The position numbers and the translations under genes are program-made. From an uncultured bacterium (GTDB taxonomy: Bacteria; Pseudomonadota; Alphaproteobacteria; Rhodospirillales; Rhodospirillaceae): a stretch of 64,000 bases of DNA. Each line of letters opens with the position of its first letter. The first letter of the stretch is position 1. The stretch is taken from assembly GCA_903888485.1 (NCBI GenBank), contig CAISTS010000045.1:62001-126000 (forward strand), read 5' to 3'. This document shows positions 1,299 to 59,547 of this stretch, piece by piece. The notes beneath the pieces were generated by a model. The model was not told the origin of the DNA and searched no databases. It saw only the letters and a list, made by a program, of their open reading frames with translations.

Positions 1299-2084
1299 GG
1301 TCAATTCCCCTGTTCAGGTGAGTTGGGTTACGTCTGAGCGTTTCGTACCAAACTAAATCGAACACCACGTTCGATGTGAAACGTCCAAACGTTGACGAGA
1401 TAAACGCACTCAGTAAAATTTCACAAGAGATTTTGAAGCGGCGTTCAATTTTTTTCTTGATTTCCTTTTGGACACGACTTCGCGCCATCGCATTCGCATC
1501 GCCGCGCGCATGGTTTTCGACTCAAAAACGCGCGCGACGGCGCGCGCAGGGCGCATCGCGCGCGCATCGTTGTGCGCACCCGCGCCGCACATCCGACGAT
1601 GCCGTCACCTGCGCCATTTTTTACGCCGTCACGGATCGTTTCCGAATGCGATTTGAATCAAAAAGCGGGACGCACGCTGCTTTCAAACCGCGCAATACCG
1701 ACCGCGAGGAAATTCAATAATTTCGCGCACTGATGCGCATTTTTGTCGGCCATGACCGCACGCGCTCCGCGATGGAATTTGTAAACGTCATAGTGCTTGG
1801 CGTTGAGTGCCGTGCGCGCCGTTTTGTGCGGAGCAAAAATGCCCCATGCGCTGCCCTGCGCCGTGCTCTTTTTGATCGGAACGGAGCGCTTGAACGTCGC
1901 GTGAGAGATCGTCGTTGATGCGCGCGCGCGTGATCATCGGAGCGGCGCGCGTCATTGCCGTCGTTAAGCGGATGGTGAGGTCGCTTAACGGTGCGTAAAC
2001 GCCGGAGGAGGGGTGCCCCAACCCCGCGCCAAGGTCGAAAATGCAAAAAATGCGCGACTCGGGGGACGTATAACCCCGCCGACG
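1299..2084. other. long noncoding interval upstream of the basic peptide
   Basis: No convincing gene is seen on either strand. The part at about 1340-1480 is AT-rich and probably holds the promoter of the minus-strand basic peptide; a weak candidate on the minus strand is TTGAAC, 17 bases, TGTGAA (near 1420-1450). The part at 1490-1960 is full of alternating purine-pyrimidine CGCGCG and GCGCGC runs. Open frames here have biased Arg/Ala/His composition and look like chance frames. Confidence 0.5.
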
Positions 2085-3164
2085 TCAGTCGACGTCGCCG
2101 TGTGCCGACATCAAGACGGCGATCGGACGCGTCTTCGGGAACTGCGCGAGCACGATCATCACTATGACCATGAGCGGTACGCTGAGGATCATGCCGGTGA
2201 TGCCCCAAATGGCGCCCCAGGTCGCCAGCGACAAGATCATCACCACCGGCGAGAGGTTGAGGGACTTCCCCGTGACCTGCGGTTCGATGACGTTCTCGAC
2301 AAAGGTCTGCACGCTGACAAGGCTCGCGAGTACGAAGGCCGCAGTGAGGAAGGAATTGAACTGCAGGAGCGCCAGCACGGTCGGGAACAGCATCGCCAAG
2401 GGTGAGCCGATGTAGGGAATGAAGTTGAGCACGAACACCAAAAGCGCCCAGAAAGCCGCGAAATCAACGTCGAACAGCCGCAGGATGACATAGCTAAGCA
2501 CGCCGTTGAGCAGGCTGATCCCGGTCTTGATGAGGACGTAGGTTTCGATCTTGCTGCCCATGGCCGAGAGTGTGCCCCGCACCATCCGTTCGCGCTCCGC
2601 ATCAGGGAACATCTTCTTCATTTTACGGTCGAAGGAGCGCATCTCGAGCAGCAGGAACATGACATAGGCCACCACCTGGAAGGTGCTGGCGGCGATGGAC
2701 TGGAAGGCGCCGGCGAAGCGCTCGACCATGGCGCGCAGGTTGATGCCGGCGGCCAGGGTCGCGAGCGTCGGCGGTTCGTCGAGGCGTAAAAGGCGGGCGG
2801 CAAAGTCCATGCCCTGGCCAAACAAGGCCTGCAGGCTTTCCTGGTAGCGCGGCGCCTCAACGACGACCGCCCGGATGTTGCCGGCGGCGATCTGCACGAC
2901 GATGCCGATAACCAAGAGGATGATGACAATGGCCAGGGTCAGGCCCAGCCACGAGGGCGGTTGCCACGATTTAATTTTGATCCGTTCAATCCGGTGCCCG
3001 AGGGCGGCGATCAGGTAGGCAATGAACACCGCCAGCACGAAGGGCATCAGGATCGATTCACCTACGACCAGCAGGTAAATCGTCAGCGCGACGATGCCGA
3101 GAGAGGCGGCCGTGGTGACGGAGCCGGAGGTGAGCGAACTGGAATTTGCGGCGGGCGCGGTCAT
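2085..3164 (-). CDS. AI-2E family transporter (permease-like membrane protein)
   Basis: A 359-residue polytopic inner-membrane protein of the AI-2E transporter family (PF01594, PerM/TqsA type). Hydrophobic segments occur in pairs near the start (about residues 20-75) and again in the second half (about 150-175 and 210-330), with the conserved soluble insert rich in charged residues between them. The conserved C-terminal permease stretch IGSPLAMLFPTVLALL is present. Family members export quorum signals or act as Na+/H+ antiporters, so the substrate is open. It follows the outer-membrane barrel gene by 36 bases on the same strand and may be the last gene of that operon. Confidence 0.85.
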   Translation of the reverse strand: MTAPAANSSSLTSGSVTTAASLGIVALTIYLLVVGESILMPFVLAVFIAYLIAALGHRIERIKIKSWQPPSWLGLTLAIVIILLVIGIVVQIAAGNIRAVVVEAPRYQESLQALFGQGMDFAARLLRLDEPPTLATLAAGINLRAMVERFAGAFQSIAASTFQVVAYVMFLLLEMRSFDRKMKKMFPDAERERMVRGTLSAMGSKIETYVLIKTGISLLNGVLSYVILRLFDVDFAAFWALLVFVLNFIPYIGSPLAMLFPTVLALLQFNSFLTAAFVLASLVSVQTFVENVIEPQVTGKSLNLSPVVMILSLATWGAIWGITGMILSVPLMVIVMIVLAQFPKTRPIAVLMSAHGDVD

Positions 3165-3200
3165 GACGGCTGTTTTACCCCGGATTGCGCCGGACTGACC

Positions 3201-4538
3201 CTAGAAAAAGAACCGGTAGCTCAGCTGCGACTGGATTTCCTTGGCGCGGGCGGGCGTGCCCAGGAATACCCGTTCAGGCCGGGTGCTGGTGACGTGCATG
3301 ACCTCCAACGTGATGCGCTGGTTGGGCGCGGGCCGGAAGATGTAGGCCCCCGTGATGGCGTGGCCGCGCTCGCGGTTGTTGTCGTCGGGTGTGATGTCGC
3401 GGTCGTCCACGGCGAAGTAATCCCCGCGCAGGCTGAGGCGGTGCCGGCCCCAGTCCTTGCTGACAAGGCCATAGCCCGAACGGAAGGCGGCATAGACGAT
3501 GGGGCCCCGTGGTTTGGGAATGGTGATGGTGCTGGTGGAGCCCACCATGAACTGGCCGATGAAGGTGACCTCGCCGGGCAGCAGCACCTTGTAGCTGGCG
3601 CTCGCGAACTTGGTGCGCCAGGCCCACTGACCCTTCACCAGGTCGCGGTCGTCGGCGAGGTTATCGTAGTAGAGGAGGGCGAGGCGGCCGTAATCGACGT
3701 GGTCGGCGCTGGCGGCGACATAGAAGCCCACGTTCTCGTCGACCTCGTGGAAGGGTTTTTCGGTCGGAGCCTGCTCGTCGAGGCGTCCACCAGGACGAAT
3801 GGCGCGGATGGGCGCGAGGGCGAGACGGTCGAAGAAGCCGGTCTCGCGGTCGTTGAAACTCCAGCCGCGCCAGGCCAGCAGCGTGCCGGTGGGGTCATTG
3901 AGCATGTAGAGCGCGCCCCTGAAGTCGATCTCCAGGTCGCCGGTGCGCCGCTGGATGCCGGCCTCGGCCCCGATGGTCTTAATCTCCTCGCCCACCCAGC
4001 TGTTGATGGCCGATGAGGTGATCGTATAGGGGCTGGTCCAGGCGAAGCCGGAGTTCTCGGCCGAGATCGGCGGATAAAAGGCGCCGCCGCGCGCGCTGAT
4101 GCCCCATTCGCCCGAGGGTGCGGGCTTGTACTCAAGGAACGCTTCGTTGAGGTCGAGGGCCGTGCGCTGCTGGTCGTTGGCGGTGATGACCACCGTGCCC
4201 GTCACATCGAAACCAAATTTAGGTTTGAGAACCAGCGCGCCCTCCGGGCGCACCAGCGTGCGGCGCTCTCCGCTCGCATCGGCGCCATAGCGTACCTTGC
4301 CGAGGCTTCTATCTTCCCAGCTACGGGCCGTGCTGCCGACGATGGCGCGCATTTCCAGCATGCCGGACACGTCCAGGCTAAAGCCGCCCAGCGTCAGCAC
4401 GTCATCGAGCGCCCGCGCATCTTGTAGCGGGGCAAGGAACGTGATGAGTGCTGCGGCTGTGCTGGCTGCGAGGAGACCTACCCGTCTGCGGCGGCCGAGC
4501 CTACCTTGCGGCGTCTCGCCATGGTCCCCGAGACCCAT
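3201..4538 (-). CDS. outer-membrane beta-barrel protein (porin-like), function unknown
   Basis: A 445-residue exported protein. After a basic region (GRRRR) there is a hydrophobic signal segment ending near DARALDD. The rest is made of alternating short beta strands and turns, and the chain ends in LSYRFFF, with the terminal Phe that the BAM machinery recognises. The composition resembles DUF1302/alginate-type porins, but I do not recognise the exact family. It starts five bases after the stop of the EAL-domain sensor gene, so the two are almost certainly translated from one message. The neighbours (cupredoxin, cyclic-di-GMP phosphodiesterase) suggest an envelope function, possibly copper or electron-transfer related; that is inference. 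Confidence 0.7.
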   Translation of the reverse strand: MGLGDHGETPQGRLGRRRRVGLLAASTAAALITFLAPLQDARALDDVLTLGGFSLDVSGMLEMRAIVGSTARSWEDRSLGKVRYGADASGERRTLVRPEGALVLKPKFGFDVTGTVVITANDQQRTALDLNEAFLEYKPAPSGEWGISARGGAFYPPISAENSGFAWTSPYTITSSAINSWVGEEIKTIGAEAGIQRRTGDLEIDFRGALYMLNDPTGTLLAWRGWSFNDRETGFFDRLALAPIRAIRPGGRLDEQAPTEKPFHEVDENVGFYVAASADHVDYGRLALLYYDNLADDRDLVKGQWAWRTKFASASYKVLLPGEVTFIGQFMVGSTSTITIPKPRGPIVYAAFRSGYGLVSKDWGRHRLSLRGDYFAVDDRDITPDDNNRERGHAITGAYIFRPAPNQRITLEVMHVTSTRPERVFLGTPARAKEIQSQLSYRFFF

Positions 4539-4543
4539 GGTTA

Positions 4544-6970
4544 TTATCCTCCCGTGGCGGCCACCACTCCCGTGATGCCGCGCCCGCCAAAATGCGGCGA
4601 CCAGCGCGACGTAGTGAAGAATGTCTCGAAATCGGCAACCGACATCGGCCGGTTGATGAAGTAACCCTGACCGGTATCGGCACCGAGGTTCTGCAGGATG
4701 TCGAGCGAAGCGCGGTCCTCGATACCCTCGGCCGTGACGCGGAGGCCCAGGTTATGGCCTAGTTCAATCGTGGACTTGACCAGGATCTGATCGCCGCGAC
4801 TGTCGGCCAGCTTGAGCACGAAGGACTTGTCGATCTTGATCTCCTGCACCGGCAGGCTCTTGATGTAGGCCAGTGACGAATAGCCGATGCCGTAGTCGTC
4901 GATCGACAGCGTCAGGCCCATGCCGTTCAAGGTGCGCAGGATTTCTTGCGCCTGCGAAGGGTTCTGCATGACCGCGCTTTCGGTGATTTCCAGGATGATC
5001 CGCCCCGGGCTGACATCATAGGCCGTCAGTAGGTTGGCGATCTCGGCCGGCAGATGCCTGTTCGACAGGTCATGGGCCGACAGGTTGACGGCGATCTTCA
5101 CGTTGATGCCCTTGTCGGCCCAGGCGCGCGATTGCTTGACCGCGGCCGCCAAGGCCCACGCCGTCAGGCGCCGGATATTGCCGGTCTGCTCGGCGAGCGG
5201 GATGAACTGGTCGGTCGGCATGAACCCGCGCTCCGGGTGGATCCAGCGGATCAGCGCTTCGACGGTGGTGACGGTCTCGGTCGAGAGGTCGACCTTGGGC
5301 TGGTAGAAGAACGTGAACTGGCCTTTGTCCAGGCCCTCGCGCAGCTCGCCCATCATCGATAGGCGTTCGGGCCGGTGCGGATCGAGTTGGGGATCGTAGA
5401 GCGCGTAGAAGCGGTTGAGCTGCTTGGCTTCGTAGATCGCCGTATCGGCATGCTGCATCAGGGTGCGCGCGGTGGTGCCGTGTTCAGGGAAACGCGCTTC
5501 GCCCAGATAAGCCGTCACGTCGATGCTAAAGCCGGCGACGCTGACGGCCTTGTCGAACAGCGCCAGCACACGCTCGACCACGAGGTTCACGGCCACGGCA
5601 TCGTCGGTATCGAGCGCGAGGGCGAACATATTGCTGCCGTGGCGCGCGACGGCATTGGGCTGCGGCACGATCTGGCGCAACGTCTTGCCGATCTTGCGCA
5701 CCAACTGGTCGCCGGTATCGTGGCCCAGCGTATTGATGAGTTCCGAGAAACGCCCGATCTGGAGCAGGATCACGCTGAACACCTTTTGAGTGTTCTGGCG
5801 GGCAATGATCATGTCGGCGACGTGGCCTTCGAACGAGATGCGGTTGGGCAAGCCCGAGAGCGAGTCATGGCGCGCCTGGAAGGCGATGCGGTCCTCGCGC
5901 TCGGCGATCCCGGCCATCATCTGGTTGAAGGTTTCGGACAGCGTGCCGAGCTCATCATGCTGGGTCACCGGAATCTTTTCGCCGTAGCGTCCGGCCTGGA
6001 TGCGCCGCGCCGCGTCATCGAGCCTGCGGATCGGCGCCGTCACGCTGCGGGCGATGAACACGGCGCCGCCGAGCGAGAACACCAACGCGGCGCCGGCGAG
6101 GGTGATCAGCAAGAGAAACAGCGGACGATAGGGTTGCAGCGCGACGTCCAGCGAATACTGGAGGACGATATGCACTTTGGTCGCGTTCAGTGGCGCTGTC
6201 AGCGGCGCGGCCAGCAGCGTGACGTAGTCGCTGCTGCCCATGGTCATCAGGGCGGGGCCGGCCATGTAAGCGCCAGAATTGCGCAGTGAACCAAGCAGCA
6301 CGTCCTTGAGGGGCGCGGACAGCGTCGTCGCCGGCGCATTCCACGTGCCGTCGGGTCCTTGGAAGGCAAATGTGATTTCCACGGGCACGGTGGTGACGCG
6401 CTGCAGCTCGCCGACAAAGGCGTTGCCGCTTTCCACGCCGATCACGATCCATCCGATCGTCAGCGGCGCTTTTACCGGCACCATCACCAGCTCGTAGATG
6501 CGGTCATCGAGTACCGTCGTTGCGGTCGCGCGGCCGGTTTCTTCGGCGGTATCGATCATGTCGGCGAACTGGAACGGCCGTTCGGCGGCGGGGCCGGCAC
6601 TTTCAGCATAGGTGGTGTCGGCCACCACCTCGGCCTCGAGCGACACCAGCATGACGCGGTCGGCGCTGATCCGGCTTGCGAGATTGTGCAGCGTCGAGAG
6701 AATGGTGGCGCGGTCGTCGCTAGCGACGGCCTGGCGGAAACCGAAGTCCGAAGCCAGCAGGGCCGCGCCGCCGGCCAGCTGATCAGCGGTTTCGGCGAGG
6801 CGGCGGTTGAAGATCTCGTTGGTGGCGGAAAGCTGGACGCGCGCCTGCTCGAAGATGTTGCGCTGAATGGCGTTCTGCACGAGCAAGAACGTCACCGCGC
6901 TGACGACGACGAACAGCATCCCGAAAAACAGGATCAGCCTAGCCTGGAAGTGTCGAAAGCTGCGAAACAC
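4544..6970 (-). CDS. membrane sensor with HAMP, degenerate GGDEF and EAL domains (c-di-GMP phosphodiesterase)
   Basis: An 808-residue inner-membrane protein. TM1 is at about residues 11-31, a periplasmic sensor of about 250 residues follows (double-CACHE-like), then TM2 at about 284-308, HAMP to about 360, a GGDEF-type domain (about 368-530) and an EAL domain (about 545-795). The GGDEF active site reads HGSNMF at about 444, so diguanylate cyclase activity should be lost. The EAL domain keeps EALIRW (571), EITES, DDYGIGYSS and the AEGIED segment, so it should hydrolyse c-di-GMP. It lies between a cupredoxin-like gene (63 bases upstream) and the barrel gene (5 bases downstream). The ligand is unknown; the periplasmic cupredoxin is one candidate partner. 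Confidence 0.9.
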   Translation of the reverse strand: MFRSFRHFQARLILFFGMLFVVVSAVTFLLVQNAIQRNIFEQARVQLSATNEIFNRRLAETADQLAGGAALLASDFGFRQAVASDDRATILSTLHNLASRISADRVMLVSLEAEVVADTTYAESAGPAAERPFQFADMIDTAEETGRATATTVLDDRIYELVMVPVKAPLTIGWIVIGVESGNAFVGELQRVTTVPVEITFAFQGPDGTWNAPATTLSAPLKDVLLGSLRNSGAYMAGPALMTMGSSDYVTLLAAPLTAPLNATKVHIVLQYSLDVALQPYRPLFLLLITLAGAALVFSLGGAVFIARSVTAPIRRLDDAARRIQAGRYGEKIPVTQHDELGTLSETFNQMMAGIAEREDRIAFQARHDSLSGLPNRISFEGHVADMIIARQNTQKVFSVILLQIGRFSELINTLGHDTGDQLVRKIGKTLRQIVPQPNAVARHGSNMFALALDTDDAVAVNLVVERVLALFDKAVSVAGFSIDVTAYLGEARFPEHGTTARTLMQHADTAIYEAKQLNRFYALYDPQLDPHRPERLSMMGELREGLDKGQFTFFYQPKVDLSTETVTTVEALIRWIHPERGFMPTDQFIPLAEQTGNIRRLTAWALAAAVKQSRAWADKGINVKIAVNLSAHDLSNRHLPAEIANLLTAYDVSPGRIILEITESAVMQNPSQAQEILRTLNGMGLTLSIDDYGIGYSSLAYIKSLPVQEIKIDKSFVLKLADSRGDQILVKSTIELGHNLGLRVTAEGIEDRASLDILQNLGADTGQGYFINRPMSVADFETFFTTSRWSPHFGGRGITGVVAATGG

Positions 6971-45170: not shown

Positions 45171-45200
45171 GAATTAATCGTACCCGGTACCTAATTTTCC
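45171..45200. repeat. REP-like palindrome GTACCCGGTAC (solo copy)
   Basis: GTACCCGGTAC at 45180-45190 followed by CTAATTTTCC. It shares TCGTACCyGGTACCTAATTT with the repeat at 57742 that flanks the transposase gene. It is 12 kb away from that gene and between unrelated genes. Confidence 0.7.
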
Positions 45201-53956: not shown

Positions 53957-53979
53957 GCTTACGTACCAGGTAAATAAGC
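53957..53979. repeat. REP-like palindrome (solo copy)
   Basis: GCTTA and TAAGC flank CGTACCAGGTAAA. The reverse complement of 53958-53972 (TACCTGGTACGTAAG) matches 57773-57787 exactly, the right flank of the transposase unit. It sits in the 31-base gap between convergent genes. Confidence 0.7.
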
Positions 53980-56583: not shown

Positions 56584-56985
56584 ATGCCCAAAGCCGTGCC
56601 ACACGAAAAGCCGCAAGGTGAATTATCGCTGCGTGTACTCGCCATGCCGGCGGACACCAACCCGTCCGGGCATATCTTCGGCGGCTGGGTGCTGGGGCAG
56701 ATGGACATCGCCGGCGGTATCCACGCGGCGGGGCAGGCGGGGGGCAGGGTGGCCACCGTCGCCGTCGACGCCATGGTGTTCCACAAGCCCGTGCACGTGG
56801 GCGACGAAGTCACCTGCTACACGCGCATCACCCGGATCGGGCGTACCTCGATCGCCGTGACGGTCGAGACCTGGGTGCGCCGCCAGCGCCTGGGCGAGCC
56901 TATCCACGTCACCGAAGGGCTTTTCACCTACGTCGCCATCGACACCCACGGCAACCCGCAGGAAATCCTGAACAAGACAATTTAA
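56584..56985 (+). CDS. acyl-CoA thioesterase (YciA/hot-dog family)
   Basis: A 133-residue hot-dog thioesterase. It has MPADTNPSGHIFGGWVLGQMDIAGGI, the YciA-type motif with the catalytic Asp or Asn region, and VDAMVFHKPVHVGDEV. It hydrolyses acyl-CoAs of short to medium chain; the exact substrate is open. The stop codon lies inside the left arm of the REP repeat at 56979. The gene is divergent from parE. Confidence 0.9.
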   Translation: MPKAVPHEKPQGELSLRVLAMPADTNPSGHIFGGWVLGQMDIAGGIHAAGQAGGRVATVAVDAMVFHKPVHVGDEVTCYTRITRIGRTSIAVTVETWVRRQRLGEPIHVTEGLFTYVAIDTHGNPQEILNKTI

Positions 56986-57031
56986 TTTGTACCTGGTACC
57001 TAATATTTTCGTACCGGGTACAATTTAAATT
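56979..57031. repeat. REP inverted repeat, left flank of the RAYT unit
   Basis: AATTTAATTTGTACCTGGTAC and GTACCGGGTACAATTTAAATT, both 21 bases, are inverted with 19 of 21 positions paired and loop CTAATATTTTC. Each arm also holds a GTACC-GGTAC palindrome. The stop codons of the thioesterase and of the transposase both lie inside the arms. Confidence 0.85.
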
Positions 57032-57734
57032 AGGACGCGAGTGCGTGCATCAGCCGCGGCCGGCCGCGGCGGCGGGGGCTGGAGAGGGGGCGTCCGGCGT
57101 GGCGGTCGACCAGGGCGCGGAAGGCGTCCTTGCCCAGCGCCCAGCCACCGTTGAGGGCGGCGCGGATGGCTTCAAGCGTCTCAGCGCCGAGGGCTCCATC
57201 GAACAGAGTCTTGTACGCCGCCGCGCGCGCCTCGGGGGTGGCCCCTTGCGCCGTGTAAAGCGCGTGCGGTCTGATCACCGCATCGTCCTTGGCTTCGGCG
57301 TTGTGCTTGTAGCTGGACCAGCGATAAGCGCCGGGCGTTTTGGCGAGGCCCGCGCGCACCGGATTGAGTTCGATATAGCGGCTGCAGGCGAAAAAGTAGT
57401 CTTCGGCGTTCACCACACAGGCCTTGTAGCGACCTTCCCACAGGCCGCCCGTGCGCCCTTGCGCCTGATTCACATGGCGTGTGTAGGCCCAGTTGAGATC
57501 GCGCATGGCCCGGGGCAGGGAGAACGCTGTCTCGGGGGTCAGGAGCATGTGCACGTGGTTGTTCATCAGCACGTAGGCGTGCACGGCAAGGCCGTGTTCC
57601 ACCGCGGCTTCCTTCAGCCAACCCAGGTAGCTCTCGGCGTCCTTGGAGCTAAAAAACACCTGGCCCTTGTTGTTGCCCCGCTGAACGACATGCACCGGAT
57701 GCCCGGGCACAAAAATCCTCGGTCGCCGCGCCAT
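57030..57734 (-). CDS. REP-associated tyrosine transposase (RAYT, Y1_Tnp)
   Basis: A 234-residue IS200-like transposase (Y1_Tnp). The HUH motif is in VLMNNHVHMLLTP (His-Val-His), with the preceding FSSKDAESYLGWLKEA region and NWAYTRHVNQAQGRTGGLWEGRY. The likely catalytic Tyr is within the segment that includes SRYIELNPVRAG. The C-terminus is a basic tail (PRRRGRPRLMHALAS). It should nick single-stranded REP DNA. Unlike IS200, it lacks its own transposon ends; RAYTs are instead linked to dispersed REP palindromes. The gene looks intact. Confidence 0.88.
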   Translation of the reverse strand: MARRPRIFVPGHPVHVVQRGNNKGQVFFSSKDAESYLGWLKEAAVEHGLAVHAYVLMNNHVHMLLTPETAFSLPRAMRDLNWAYTRHVNQAQGRTGGLWEGRYKACVVNAEDYFFACSRYIELNPVRAGLAKTPGAYRWSSYKHNAEAKDDAVIRPHALYTAQGATPEARAAAYKTLFDGALGAETLEAIRAALNGGWALGKDAFRALVDRHAGRPLSSPRRRGRPRLMHALAS

Positions 57735-57741
57735 GAAGCCC

Positions 57742-57788
57742 CCTTAATTCGTACCTGGTACCTAATTTAATGTACCTGGTACGTAAGG
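57742..57788. repeat. REP inverted repeat, right flank of the RAYT unit
   Basis: CCTTA, ATTC and GTACCTGGTAC on the left and GTACCTGGTAC plus GTAAGG on the right, with loop CTAATTTAAT. Both arms have the GTACCTGGTAC palindrome. It begins 8 bases before the RAYT start codon on the minus strand, so it may also hold its promoter or operator. Confidence 0.85.
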
Positions 57789-57835
57789 AATCGTCCAGCC
57801 TTGACGCCCCATCCCGGCCCAGGCAGAACCCTCTC

Positions 57836-58375
57836 ATGACCAAGCCCCCCGTTATTTCCCCCGCCTATGCCGAGATGAACCGGCAGCTGCACGAGGACAA
57901 GCCGGAGTATGGCGTCGGAGCGGCTTTCGATGCGCCCACCATCCTCGCGCTGTGCCGGCAGAACGGCTTTGCCAGCGTGCTCGACTTCGGATGCGGCAAA
58001 GGCGCGCTCAAGCAGGCCCTGGCCACTTCGGCGCCCGACATCACGGTCCTTGAGTTCGACCCCGCCGTGCCCGGCAAGGATTCGCTGCCGACCCAGCCCT
58101 TCGATCTCCTGGTCGCCCTCGACGTCATGGAGCACATCGAGCCCGACTACCTCACCGGCGCGCTCGCGACGATGCGCGACCTCGCCCCCAAGGGCGTCGT
58201 GCTCAAGATCGCGCTGATCCCGGCGAACAAGACGCTGCCCGACGGACGCAACGCCCACCTCATCGTCGAGTCCAAGGTCTGGTGGCAAGAACAACTCGCG
58301 CCGTTCTTCAAAACCGTCGGGGTGCAGGACATCCCGTCCCACTTCATTTTCATGGGAACGCCGAAGCAGGATTAG
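57836..58375 (+). CDS. class I SAM-dependent methyltransferase
   Basis: A 179-residue methyltransferase. The SAM-binding motif I is SVLDFGCGKGALKQAL (about residues 43-59), and LLVALDVMEHIEPDYL corresponds to motif III. The ATG at 57836 is chosen. A longer frame starts inside the REP repeat (57770) and is probably not used. The target is unknown. It overlaps the next convergent gene by four bases. Confidence 0.82.
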   Translation: MTKPPVISPAYAEMNRQLHEDKPEYGVGAAFDAPTILALCRQNGFASVLDFGCGKGALKQALATSAPDITVLEFDPAVPGKDSLPTQPFDLLVALDVMEHIEPDYLTGALATMRDLAPKGVVLKIALIPANKTLPDGRNAHLIVESKVWWQEQLAPFFKTVGVQDIPSHFIFMGTPKQD

Positions 58376-59547
58376 CCTTCGCGGCGGAAGGGGCCCAGAT
58401 CGATCTGTGCTTCGATGTCGGCGGCCACGGCCGCGCGCTCCTCGACCAGGAAGCGCTCGACGGCCTTGGTGAACCCGCGGTCGGCGATCCAGTGGCAAGA
58501 GTAAGTGGGCCGCGGCAGATAACCGCGCTGCAGCTTGTGACGTCCCTGTGCCCCGGCCTCGACCCAGGCGAGCTTGTGTTCGATGGCGAAATCGATGGCG
58601 CGGTAGTAGCAGACCTCAAAGTGCAGCATCGGCACGTCGACCACGGTCCCCCAGTTGCGCCCGAACAAGGTATCGTCCCCGCGTAAATTGAGCGCGCCGC
58701 ACACGGGCCGGCCGTCCTCTTCGCCCATCACCAACACCACGGCGTCGCCCATGCGCTGGCCCAGCAGTTCGAAGAATTCGCGGTTCAGGTAGGCCTGGCC
58801 CCACTTGCGGTCCGAGGTGTTCATGTAGAAGCGGAAGAAGGCGTCCCAGTGCTTGGTGGTGATCTCGGTGCCTACAAGCGTACGGATCGCGACGCCGGCG
58901 CCGTTGGCGATCTCGCGTTCCTTGCGGATCGCCTTGCGTTTGCGGGACGACAGCTCGGCGAGAAATTCATCGAAGCCCGCGTAGCCTTCATTTTTCCAAT
59001 GATATTGCTCGCCGATGCGCGACATGAATCCCAACTCGGTCATGAGGGCGCTTTCGTCTTCGGTGGGGAACGTGATGTGCAGCGACGAAACCTTGAGCCG
59101 CTTTGCCAGCTCCATCATGCCCGCCGCTAAGGCAAGACGGCCTTCACGCGCATCCACGTCTCCGCGCACCATCAGGCGCGGTCCGGTCACCGGCGTGAAC
59201 GGCACGGCGCATTGGAGTTTCGGGTAATAGCGCCCGCCGGCGCGCTGGTAAGCCTCGGCCCAGCTCCAGTCGAAGACGTACTCGCCGTAAGAATGGTTCT
59301 TGAGATAGAGCGGCGCGCACGCGAGCACACGTCCCGCCGCGTCTTCCAGCACCAGGTGCTGCGGTTGCCAGCCGGCTTCAGCGCCGACCGAACCTGAGTC
59401 CTCCAGGGCACTGAAGAAAGCGTGCCTGACAAAGGGATTCTGTGTCCCGGCGCAGGCATCCCACGCGCCCGCATCGATGCTGTTGATGCTGGGGATGACT
59501 TTCAGCGACCACTCTTGACGTGTTTCTTTCTCGTCATCCATGAGCAC
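58372..59547 (-). CDS. GNAT/FemAB-like protein (DUF482 family)
   Basis: A 391-residue protein of the FemAB-like GNAT family (PF04339). It has LVLEDAAGRVLACAPLYLKNHSYGEYVFDWSWAEAY near the start, then the GNAT-type LSSRKRKAIRKERE, RFYMNTSDRKWGQAYL and, near the end, WVEAGAQGRHKLQRGYLPRPTYS. These proteins are often called peptidogalycan biosynthesis proteins; the true acceptor is not known. It lies 21 bases downstream of the MFS transporter gene on the same strand. Confidence 0.82.
   Translation of the reverse strand: MLMDDEKETRQEWSLKVIPSINSIDAGAWDACAGTQNPFVRHAFFSALEDSGSVGAEAGWQPQHLVLEDAAGRVLACAPLYLKNHSYGEYVFDWSWAEAYQRAGGRYYPKLQCAVPFTPVTGPRLMVRGDVDAREGRLALAAGMMELAKRLKVSSLHITFPTEDESALMTELGFMSRIGEQYHWKNEGYAGFDEFLAELSSRKRKAIRKEREIANGAGVAIRTLVGTEITTKHWDAFFRFYMNTSDRKWGQAYLNREFFELLGQRMGDAVVLVMGEEDGRPVCGALNLRGDDTLFGRNWGTVVDVPMLHFEVCYYRAIDFAIEHKLAWVEAGAQGRHKLQRGYLPRPTYSCHWIADRGFTKAVERFLVEERAAVAADIEAQIDLGPFRREG

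Follow-up and report, generated by a model that had tools for sequence, protein, structure and literature searches.

A TIRYT-type RAYT gene in a Rhodospirillaceae genus and a dispersed non-GTAG palindrome family that appears to track it

We analyzed a 64,000-nucleotide stretch of DNA (the window) on contig C45 of an uncultured bacterium, whose genome (G000) is represented by a 3.49-Mb assembly of 89 contigs that is 90.8% complete. A gene for a REP-associated tyrosine transposase (RAYT) lies between two palindrome doublets, and two solo palindromes are found at lower coordinates in the window. The features are as follows.

45180 to 45190, unstranded: solo palindrome GTACCCGGTAC between convergent genes, with an extended match to the right doublet at 45178-45197
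53958 to 53973, unstranded: degenerate solo palindrome, core GTACCAGGTAA at 53963-53973, with a 15-base exact match to the right doublet
56584 to 56985, plus strand: yciA-like acyl-CoA thioesterase gene, convergent neighbour and fixed border of the RAYT site
56979 to 57031, unstranded: left palindrome doublet, GTACCTGGTAC at 56989-56999 and GTACCGGGTAC at 57011-57021, with a one-hairpin fold
57030 to 57734, minus strand: RAYT/TIRYT gene for a 234-aa HUH/Y1 transposase-like protein, assigned by Pfam and NCBIfam matches, orthologue alignment and a structure model
57742 to 57788, unstranded: right palindrome doublet, GTACCTGGTAC at 57751-57761 and 57772-57782, immediately 5' of the RAYT start
57770 to 58375, plus strand: methyltransferase-like gene between the right doublet and the FemAB_like gene
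58372 to 59547, minus strand: FemAB_like gene (537 bits to Pfam PF04339), bordering the RAYT site on its other side

The palindrome GTACCNGGTAC occurs five times in the window (at 45180, 56989, 57011, 57751, and 57772) and not once in 100 shuffles. The left doublet is predicted to fold into a single DNA hairpin (-13.8 kcal/mol, z -6.0) that covers the yciA stop codon (56983-56985) and all but one base of the RAYT stop codon (57030-57032), and the right doublet is also predicted to form a DNA hairpin (-12.0 kcal/mol, z -5.4); the solo copy at 45180 folds no better than its shuffles (z 0.17). Longer sequences join the solo copies to the right doublet: TCGTACCYGGTACCTAATTT is present exactly at 45178 and 57749, and TACCTGGTACGTAAG exactly at 53958 (minus strand) and 57773 (plus strand), the 53958 copy being a palindrome with one mismatch. 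An earlier note on this DNA, made from the letters alone, had described a HUH/Y1 gene set between palindromic inverted repeats, the left of them overlapping the stop codons of both adjacent genes, together with solo palindromes sharing extended sequence, and all three observations hold. The listed ATG of the methyltransferase-like gene (57770) falls within the palindrome repeat, and a start at 57836 is likelier; this gene was unmatched in the other 17 yciA loci fetched.

The RAYT protein matches Pfam Y1_Tnp with 51.4 bits (cutoff 23) and is the sole match to this family genome-wide in G000, while its score against the NCBIfam REP-associated tyrosine transposase model (73 bits) is below that model's cutoff of 80. 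Its motifs are N59 H60 V61 H62, W99 E100, and Y120 I E L N P, with H60, H62, and Y120 invariant across 14 RAYT orthologues. An AlphaFold model, made with 39 sequences, has a mean pLDDT of 91, and its best fold match is 4er8, the E. coli RAYT/TnpA-REP bound to a REP hairpin (E 3.5e-9), followed by the ISDra2 and IS608 transposases. Judged by its motifs, the protein is a member of subclass 2.1, or group 1 (TIRYT). Subclass 2.1 is equated with Bertels group 1 and related to the TIRYTs in the relevant part of PMC6006769, which gives its motifs as NHVH, W[EQ], and Y[IV]xLNP and its length as ~238 aa, and which ranks it second in size among the TnpA-Y1 subclasses and first within class 2 (493 sequences, in 14.9% of strains).

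Across the G000 genome we counted 23 exact copies of GTACCNGGTAC, of which 9 have G or C at the centre, compared with 9 for the reversed control, and 15 copies of AATTSGTACCNGGTACSAATT at up to 3 mismatches against none for its reversed control. Some extended copies, such as AATTCGTACCGGGTACGAATT, consist of perfect 10-bp arms flanking one base. The earlier note had raised the possibility that the palindrome is absent elsewhere in the genome. It is common elsewhere in G000, with its 23 copies set against a mean of 0.7 in the 118 surveyed genomes that belong to the order but not to the genus (86 copies in total, any in 52 of the 118, maximum 9). The order survey as a whole, with G000 and G014 included, has a match in 54 of 120 genomes. 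These survey counts are used here as the baseline, the reversed pattern CATGGNCCATG being a poor one that is commoner than the palindrome in most of the surveyed genomes. G087, which has 9 palindromes and is the sole genome outside the genus with more than 4 in this survey, may hold a related system.

The copies lie mostly between genes. None of the 18 clusters in G000 is within a gene as predicted by a codon-usage gene caller, and just 1 of the 61 clusters in G002, G013, and G009 is, with 4 others having a called gene on one side only. The G000 clusters sit between convergent (11), tandem (4), or divergent (3) genes, and 10 of the 11 convergent ones are no more than 30 bp from at least one stop codon. 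This placement, and the predicted hairpins of several copies, are what one would expect of bidirectional terminators; that the palindromes are such terminators, or operator sites of a regulator, with the transposase there by chance, is nevertheless quite unlikely, as the palindrome is rare in the 118 genomes of the order and, as described below, absent from all four congeners with other RAYT clades, changes to a GTCCC form both at the RAYT gene and elsewhere in G010, and occurs in pairs that have a common nonpalindromic interior at unrelated loci. Termination may be a side effect of the palindromes.

We compared copy number with the state of the RAYT gene in a sample of 19 genomes of the genus, 18 of which have a RAYT match, belonging to several clades. 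The window's clade (clade A) is present in 14 genomes; the 13 proteins besides the window's share 61-72% identity with it. Perfect palindromes flank the gene with two per side at 11 of the 14 loci and one per side in G001, and are missing from the flanks in G010 and G014. The 12 genomes with perfect flanks hold 12, 18, 19, 21, 22, 22, 23, 25, 26, 27, 31, and 35 copies of GTACCNGGTAC, the 2-4 copies at the RAYT itself included, and the four genomes that have other RAYT clades only (G004, G005, G007, and G011) hold none. The earlier note had allowed that the repeats might be simple terminators also found in relatives that lack the transposase; the zero counts in these four congeners speak against this. 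One genome, G006 (89% complete, in 500 contigs), has no RAYT match and still carries 4 GTACC and 2 GTCCC palindromes, which could be relics or reflect an assembly gap.

The two clade-A genomes without perfect flanks differ from each other. G010 holds 5 copies of GTACCNGGTAC, and its RAYT is flanked by three exact copies of GTCCCTGGTAC and a fourth that reads GTCCCTGGCAC. Genome-wide it has 13 copies of GTCCCNGGTAC (reversed control 4), all T-centred. Ten of the 13 are not at the RAYT, and at least one of the ten (L298) resembles coding sequence. The GTCCC variant numbers 0-6 in each of the other 18 genomes; G009 has 6, mixed in their centres, and G012 carries 5 copies of GTCCCTGGTAC, all T-centred, although its RAYT flanks are GTACC. 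G014, which is 100% complete, has a single palindrome, and its RAYT retains the invariant catalytic residues without flanking repeats (L057, 1300-1510 and 2160-2360); the search for fresh repeats around this gene gave just one pair of 10-nt arms, 90% complementary. The comparison of these sequences supports a palindrome family that is non-GTAG, dispersed between genes, confined to the lineage, and tracks the RAYT gene.

A second RAYT clade of the genus (L060-L062 and L064-L066) has a different repeat, with a GGGTCAGA...TCTGACCC inverted repeat upstream of the gene. This repeat is present in 1-10 copies in 8 of the 19 genomes, namely all six with the second clade plus G001 and G011 (76% and 71% complete, with no such RAYT found), and its reversed control occurs once, in G014. 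The RAYT-adjacent copy shares its local subtype with the dispersed ones in G003 and G008 (GAGTCAA and mostly GAGTAAA, respectively). A RAYT clade of the genus other than clade A bears GGGGTCAGA-type repeats. The RAYT flanks at L063 and L067-L069 and at L070-L072 represent two further clades, with ATATCTGATAT-type and GGGGACA...TATAC-type repeats. An inverted-repeat scan of 80 relatives, assessed by eye, gave clear long repeats in part of them only.

Dispersed palindromes occur singly or in pairs. Spacings in six complete lists cluster at 19-23 bp and at 57-66 bp; 37, 45, and 52 bp were each seen once. The pairs 30-100 bp apart in G000, G002, G009, and G013 number 23, of which 22 are at 57-66 bp, and their centres read A-T in 20, C-T in 1, and T-A in 2. 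The element in three species consists of an A-centred palindrome, ~48 nt, and a T-centred palindrome. A set of 29 loose pairs from G002, G009, and G013, one of which (L247) looks spurious, aligns as a ~90-100 bp element with AATTAAAT-like ends; an interior around CAGACTCACCGCGTGCGG is common to many of these, and other pairs have interiors that are A+T-rich or unrelated. The interior recurs at unrelated loci, with best matches of 83% and 89% over 97-98 bp, and the L239 element is predicted to fold as a single strand with -31.3 kcal/mol (z -8.8). This REPIN structure, including copies at unrelated loci, is found in G002, G009, and G013. In G000 a single pair (L018, 63 bp) was found to have REPIN spacing, all its other palindromes forming doublets or standing alone, and current activity in G000 is therefore unsupported.

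Many element sites are common to G002, G009, and G013 and are therefore older. The element at L203 in G002 is absent at the orthologous G009 junction (34 bp vs. 120 bp), and the G013 contig ends there; this one empty site did not suffice to place the ends of the element or to establish a target duplication. Two other orthologous places have a pair in one species and a single palindrome in another.

The layout of the RAYT locus resembles that of the paired elements. Read in the orientation of the gene, the palindrome closest to the start codon has A as its centre at all 13 readable loci, and the first palindrome past the stop codon is T-centred at 10 of 13, A-centred at 2, and C-centred in the window, with G001 having one repeat only past the stop. 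Since an A-centred start side and a mostly T-centred stop side are also what is seen at REPIN ends, the RAYT unit resembles a full-length form of the REPIN, with the gene as its interior. The possibility that the REPIN interior arose as an internal deletion of the RAYT unit was considered and rejected: four interiors compared with three RAYT loci gave no match longer than 10 bases, so the elements are not plain internal deletions.

We infer that the REPINs were dispersed by the RAYT. It could also be that the repeats are truly mobile and the RAYT a mere passenger, another enzyme or recombination between copies having spread them. Recombination might yield an arrangement like that at L243 in G009 (1510-5720), where ~4 kb lies between two same-orientation REPINs and is missing at the matching G013 locus; part of this segment sits on other contigs in G013 and G002, and a clean insertion between the REPINs could not be shown. 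The copies in G006, where no RAYT was found, would also fit a passenger. We nevertheless consider this unlikely given that G000 has this one Y1 protein only, that RAYT flanks and dispersed copies change together, and that the second RAYT clade is paired with its own dispersed repeat.

The genomic site of the gene is conserved. We found yciA in 18 of the 19 genomes of the genus, and it adjoins the RAYT in all 14 clade-A genomes. FemAB_like is present at 12 of the 14 RAYT loci, directly at 11 and behind the methyltransferase-like gene in G000; the G009 contig reaches only 70 bp past the RAYT on its upstream side, and G017 has no FemAB match in the fetched stretch. Clade-A RAYT is absent from G004, G005, and G007, where yciA and FemAB_like are direct convergent neighbours. 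For the four least diverged pairs, dN/dS is 0.066, 0.123, 0.092, and 0.158 for the RAYT and 0.017, 0.082, 0.074, and 0.150 for yciA, and by these ratios the RAYT, which lies beside yciA throughout the clade, has been kept under purifying selection. A still-active insertion sequence (an autonomous TIRtron) moving with its gene would have inverted palindromes at both ends, as here, and could leave yciA and FemAB_like adjacent without the RAYT, as in the three relatives; such activity is very unlikely, however, for a gene with one clade-A copy per genome, always beside yciA, 61-72% protein identity between species, and low dN/dS.

The RAYT and host trees conflict. The host topology is rejected for the RAYT (AU p 0.0006) and the RAYT topology for the host data (AU p 1.8e-5), and codivergence of RAYT and host is not simply supported. 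The best-supported host split (10 genomes vs. G002, G009, G013, and G014) is not rejected by the RAYT (AU p 0.153), and most host nodes are weak, so that the conflict comes in large part from poorly supported nodes. G004, G005, and G007 served as the root of the host tree, and its FemAB part comprises 36 residues for G000 and none for G017 and G009; because of this rooting, the host tree alone cannot tell RAYT gain from loss. Recombination or transfer at the yciA/RAYT locus is possible. The earlier note had suggested that the system may be domesticated in this lineage, and we likewise infer domestication of the RAYT, from its one conserved site, the single clade-A copy in each genome, and purifying selection, although the RAYT tree departs from the host tree.

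Several known systems are comparable. According to part of PMC3733652, TIRYTs are RAYTs whose flanking inverted repeats are not of the GTAG type, are self-complementary in some cases, and form moderately abundant genomic families (TIRtrons); in the majority of the described cases, not all, the repeats share GGGGWSAS. The window's system resembles TIRYT/subclass 2.1 in protein length, in its NHVH/WE/YIELNP motifs, in its non-GTAG flanking inverted repeats, and in the moderately abundant, self-complementary, paired families. It differs in that the window's clade has GTACC or GTCCC (GTACCNGGTAC in the GTACC form) and not GGGGWSAS, and in its palindrome pairs on either side of the gene, its REPINs, the single site it occupies across the genus, and a repeat and gene that change together. 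The passage on subclass 2.1 in PMC6006769 reports no REP-like sequences for it. Where TIRYT/subclass 2.1 proteins have a C-terminal helix-turn-helix or DnaA-like domain, the model here shows C-terminal helices, and Pfam gave no second match at E 0.001.

RAYTs are characterized in the relevant section of PMC8049555 as single-copy, vertically inherited, and domesticated, and REPINs are described there. The system shares with the E. coli and Pseudomonas RAYT-REP systems (subclasses 2.2 and 2.5; groups 2 and 3) the HUH/Y1 fold, one gene, cognate dispersed palindromes, inverted pairs, and diverse spacers, but its protein motifs are different and its copies number 12-35, compared with 156 on average in the E. 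coli strains considered in that section. A role of GTAG has been shown in RAYT groups 2 and 3, according to the part of PMC8266576 that deals with it; here, inspection of the flanks by eye revealed no GT[AG]G tetranucleotide, as found in canonical REPtrons, at the hairpin 5' foot. The catalytic fold is common to the IS200/IS605 elements (IS608, ISDra2) as well, unlike which the window's gene has YIELNP rather than Y---Q, shows no near-identical multiple copies, and is the one Y1 match in G000. The paired elements are like MITEs mobilised in trans in being short, with inverted ends resembling the gene-bearing unit, and unlike a plain MITE in that the interiors of the four tested elements are unmatched over more than 10 bases in the RAYT loci. 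Four forms of the palindrome, searched as literature text, gave no bacterial repeat among the titles of the matches listed, and no title listed by the other searches names this repeat. The earlier note had set the palindrome apart from the GTAG-type REPs, and it does belong to a non-GTAG family of its own, but the contrast with known systems was incomplete, as TIRYT/TIRtrons have non-GTAG repeats too (PMC3733652, in the part cited above). TIRYT-type RAYTs are known; what is new is the repeat, the conserved site, and the plain joint change of gene and repeat.

We consider it probable, at roughly 78%, that the gene encodes a domesticated subclass 2.1 single-stranded DNA transposase with its own palindrome substrate and REPIN family, a mechanism read from anatomy and distribution. 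The substrate would be GTACCNGGTAC in A+T-rich surroundings, usually with AATT or AAAT at a distance of one to a few bases, forming a hairpin in single-stranded DNA. The RAYT would bind such hairpins and cut and rejoin them via Y120, and would slowly have copied or moved elements into intergenic gaps, often beside stop codons. Near-perfect palindromes that stand alone, AATTCGTACCGGGTACGAATT for example, are probably REPINs without their former interior. Repeat and protein would have changed together while the RAYT stayed beside yciA.

More tentatively, and with somewhat less than even confidence, we suggest that a group 1/subclass 2.1 RAYT may run a full REPIN system without a GTAG guide and that the recognised palindrome may have switched from GTACC to GTCCC within the genus. 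G014, where the repeats are gone and the gene and its catalytic residues are kept, points under the same suggestion to a protein that serves its host in some way other than by moving repeats. The genus provides a matched set for asking what subclass 2.1 proteins recognise and why hosts keep them: it includes intact pairs of gene and repeat, one switch of repeat, one genome that has lost the repeats but not the gene, gene-less sites, and a second RAYT clade with a dispersed repeat of its own.
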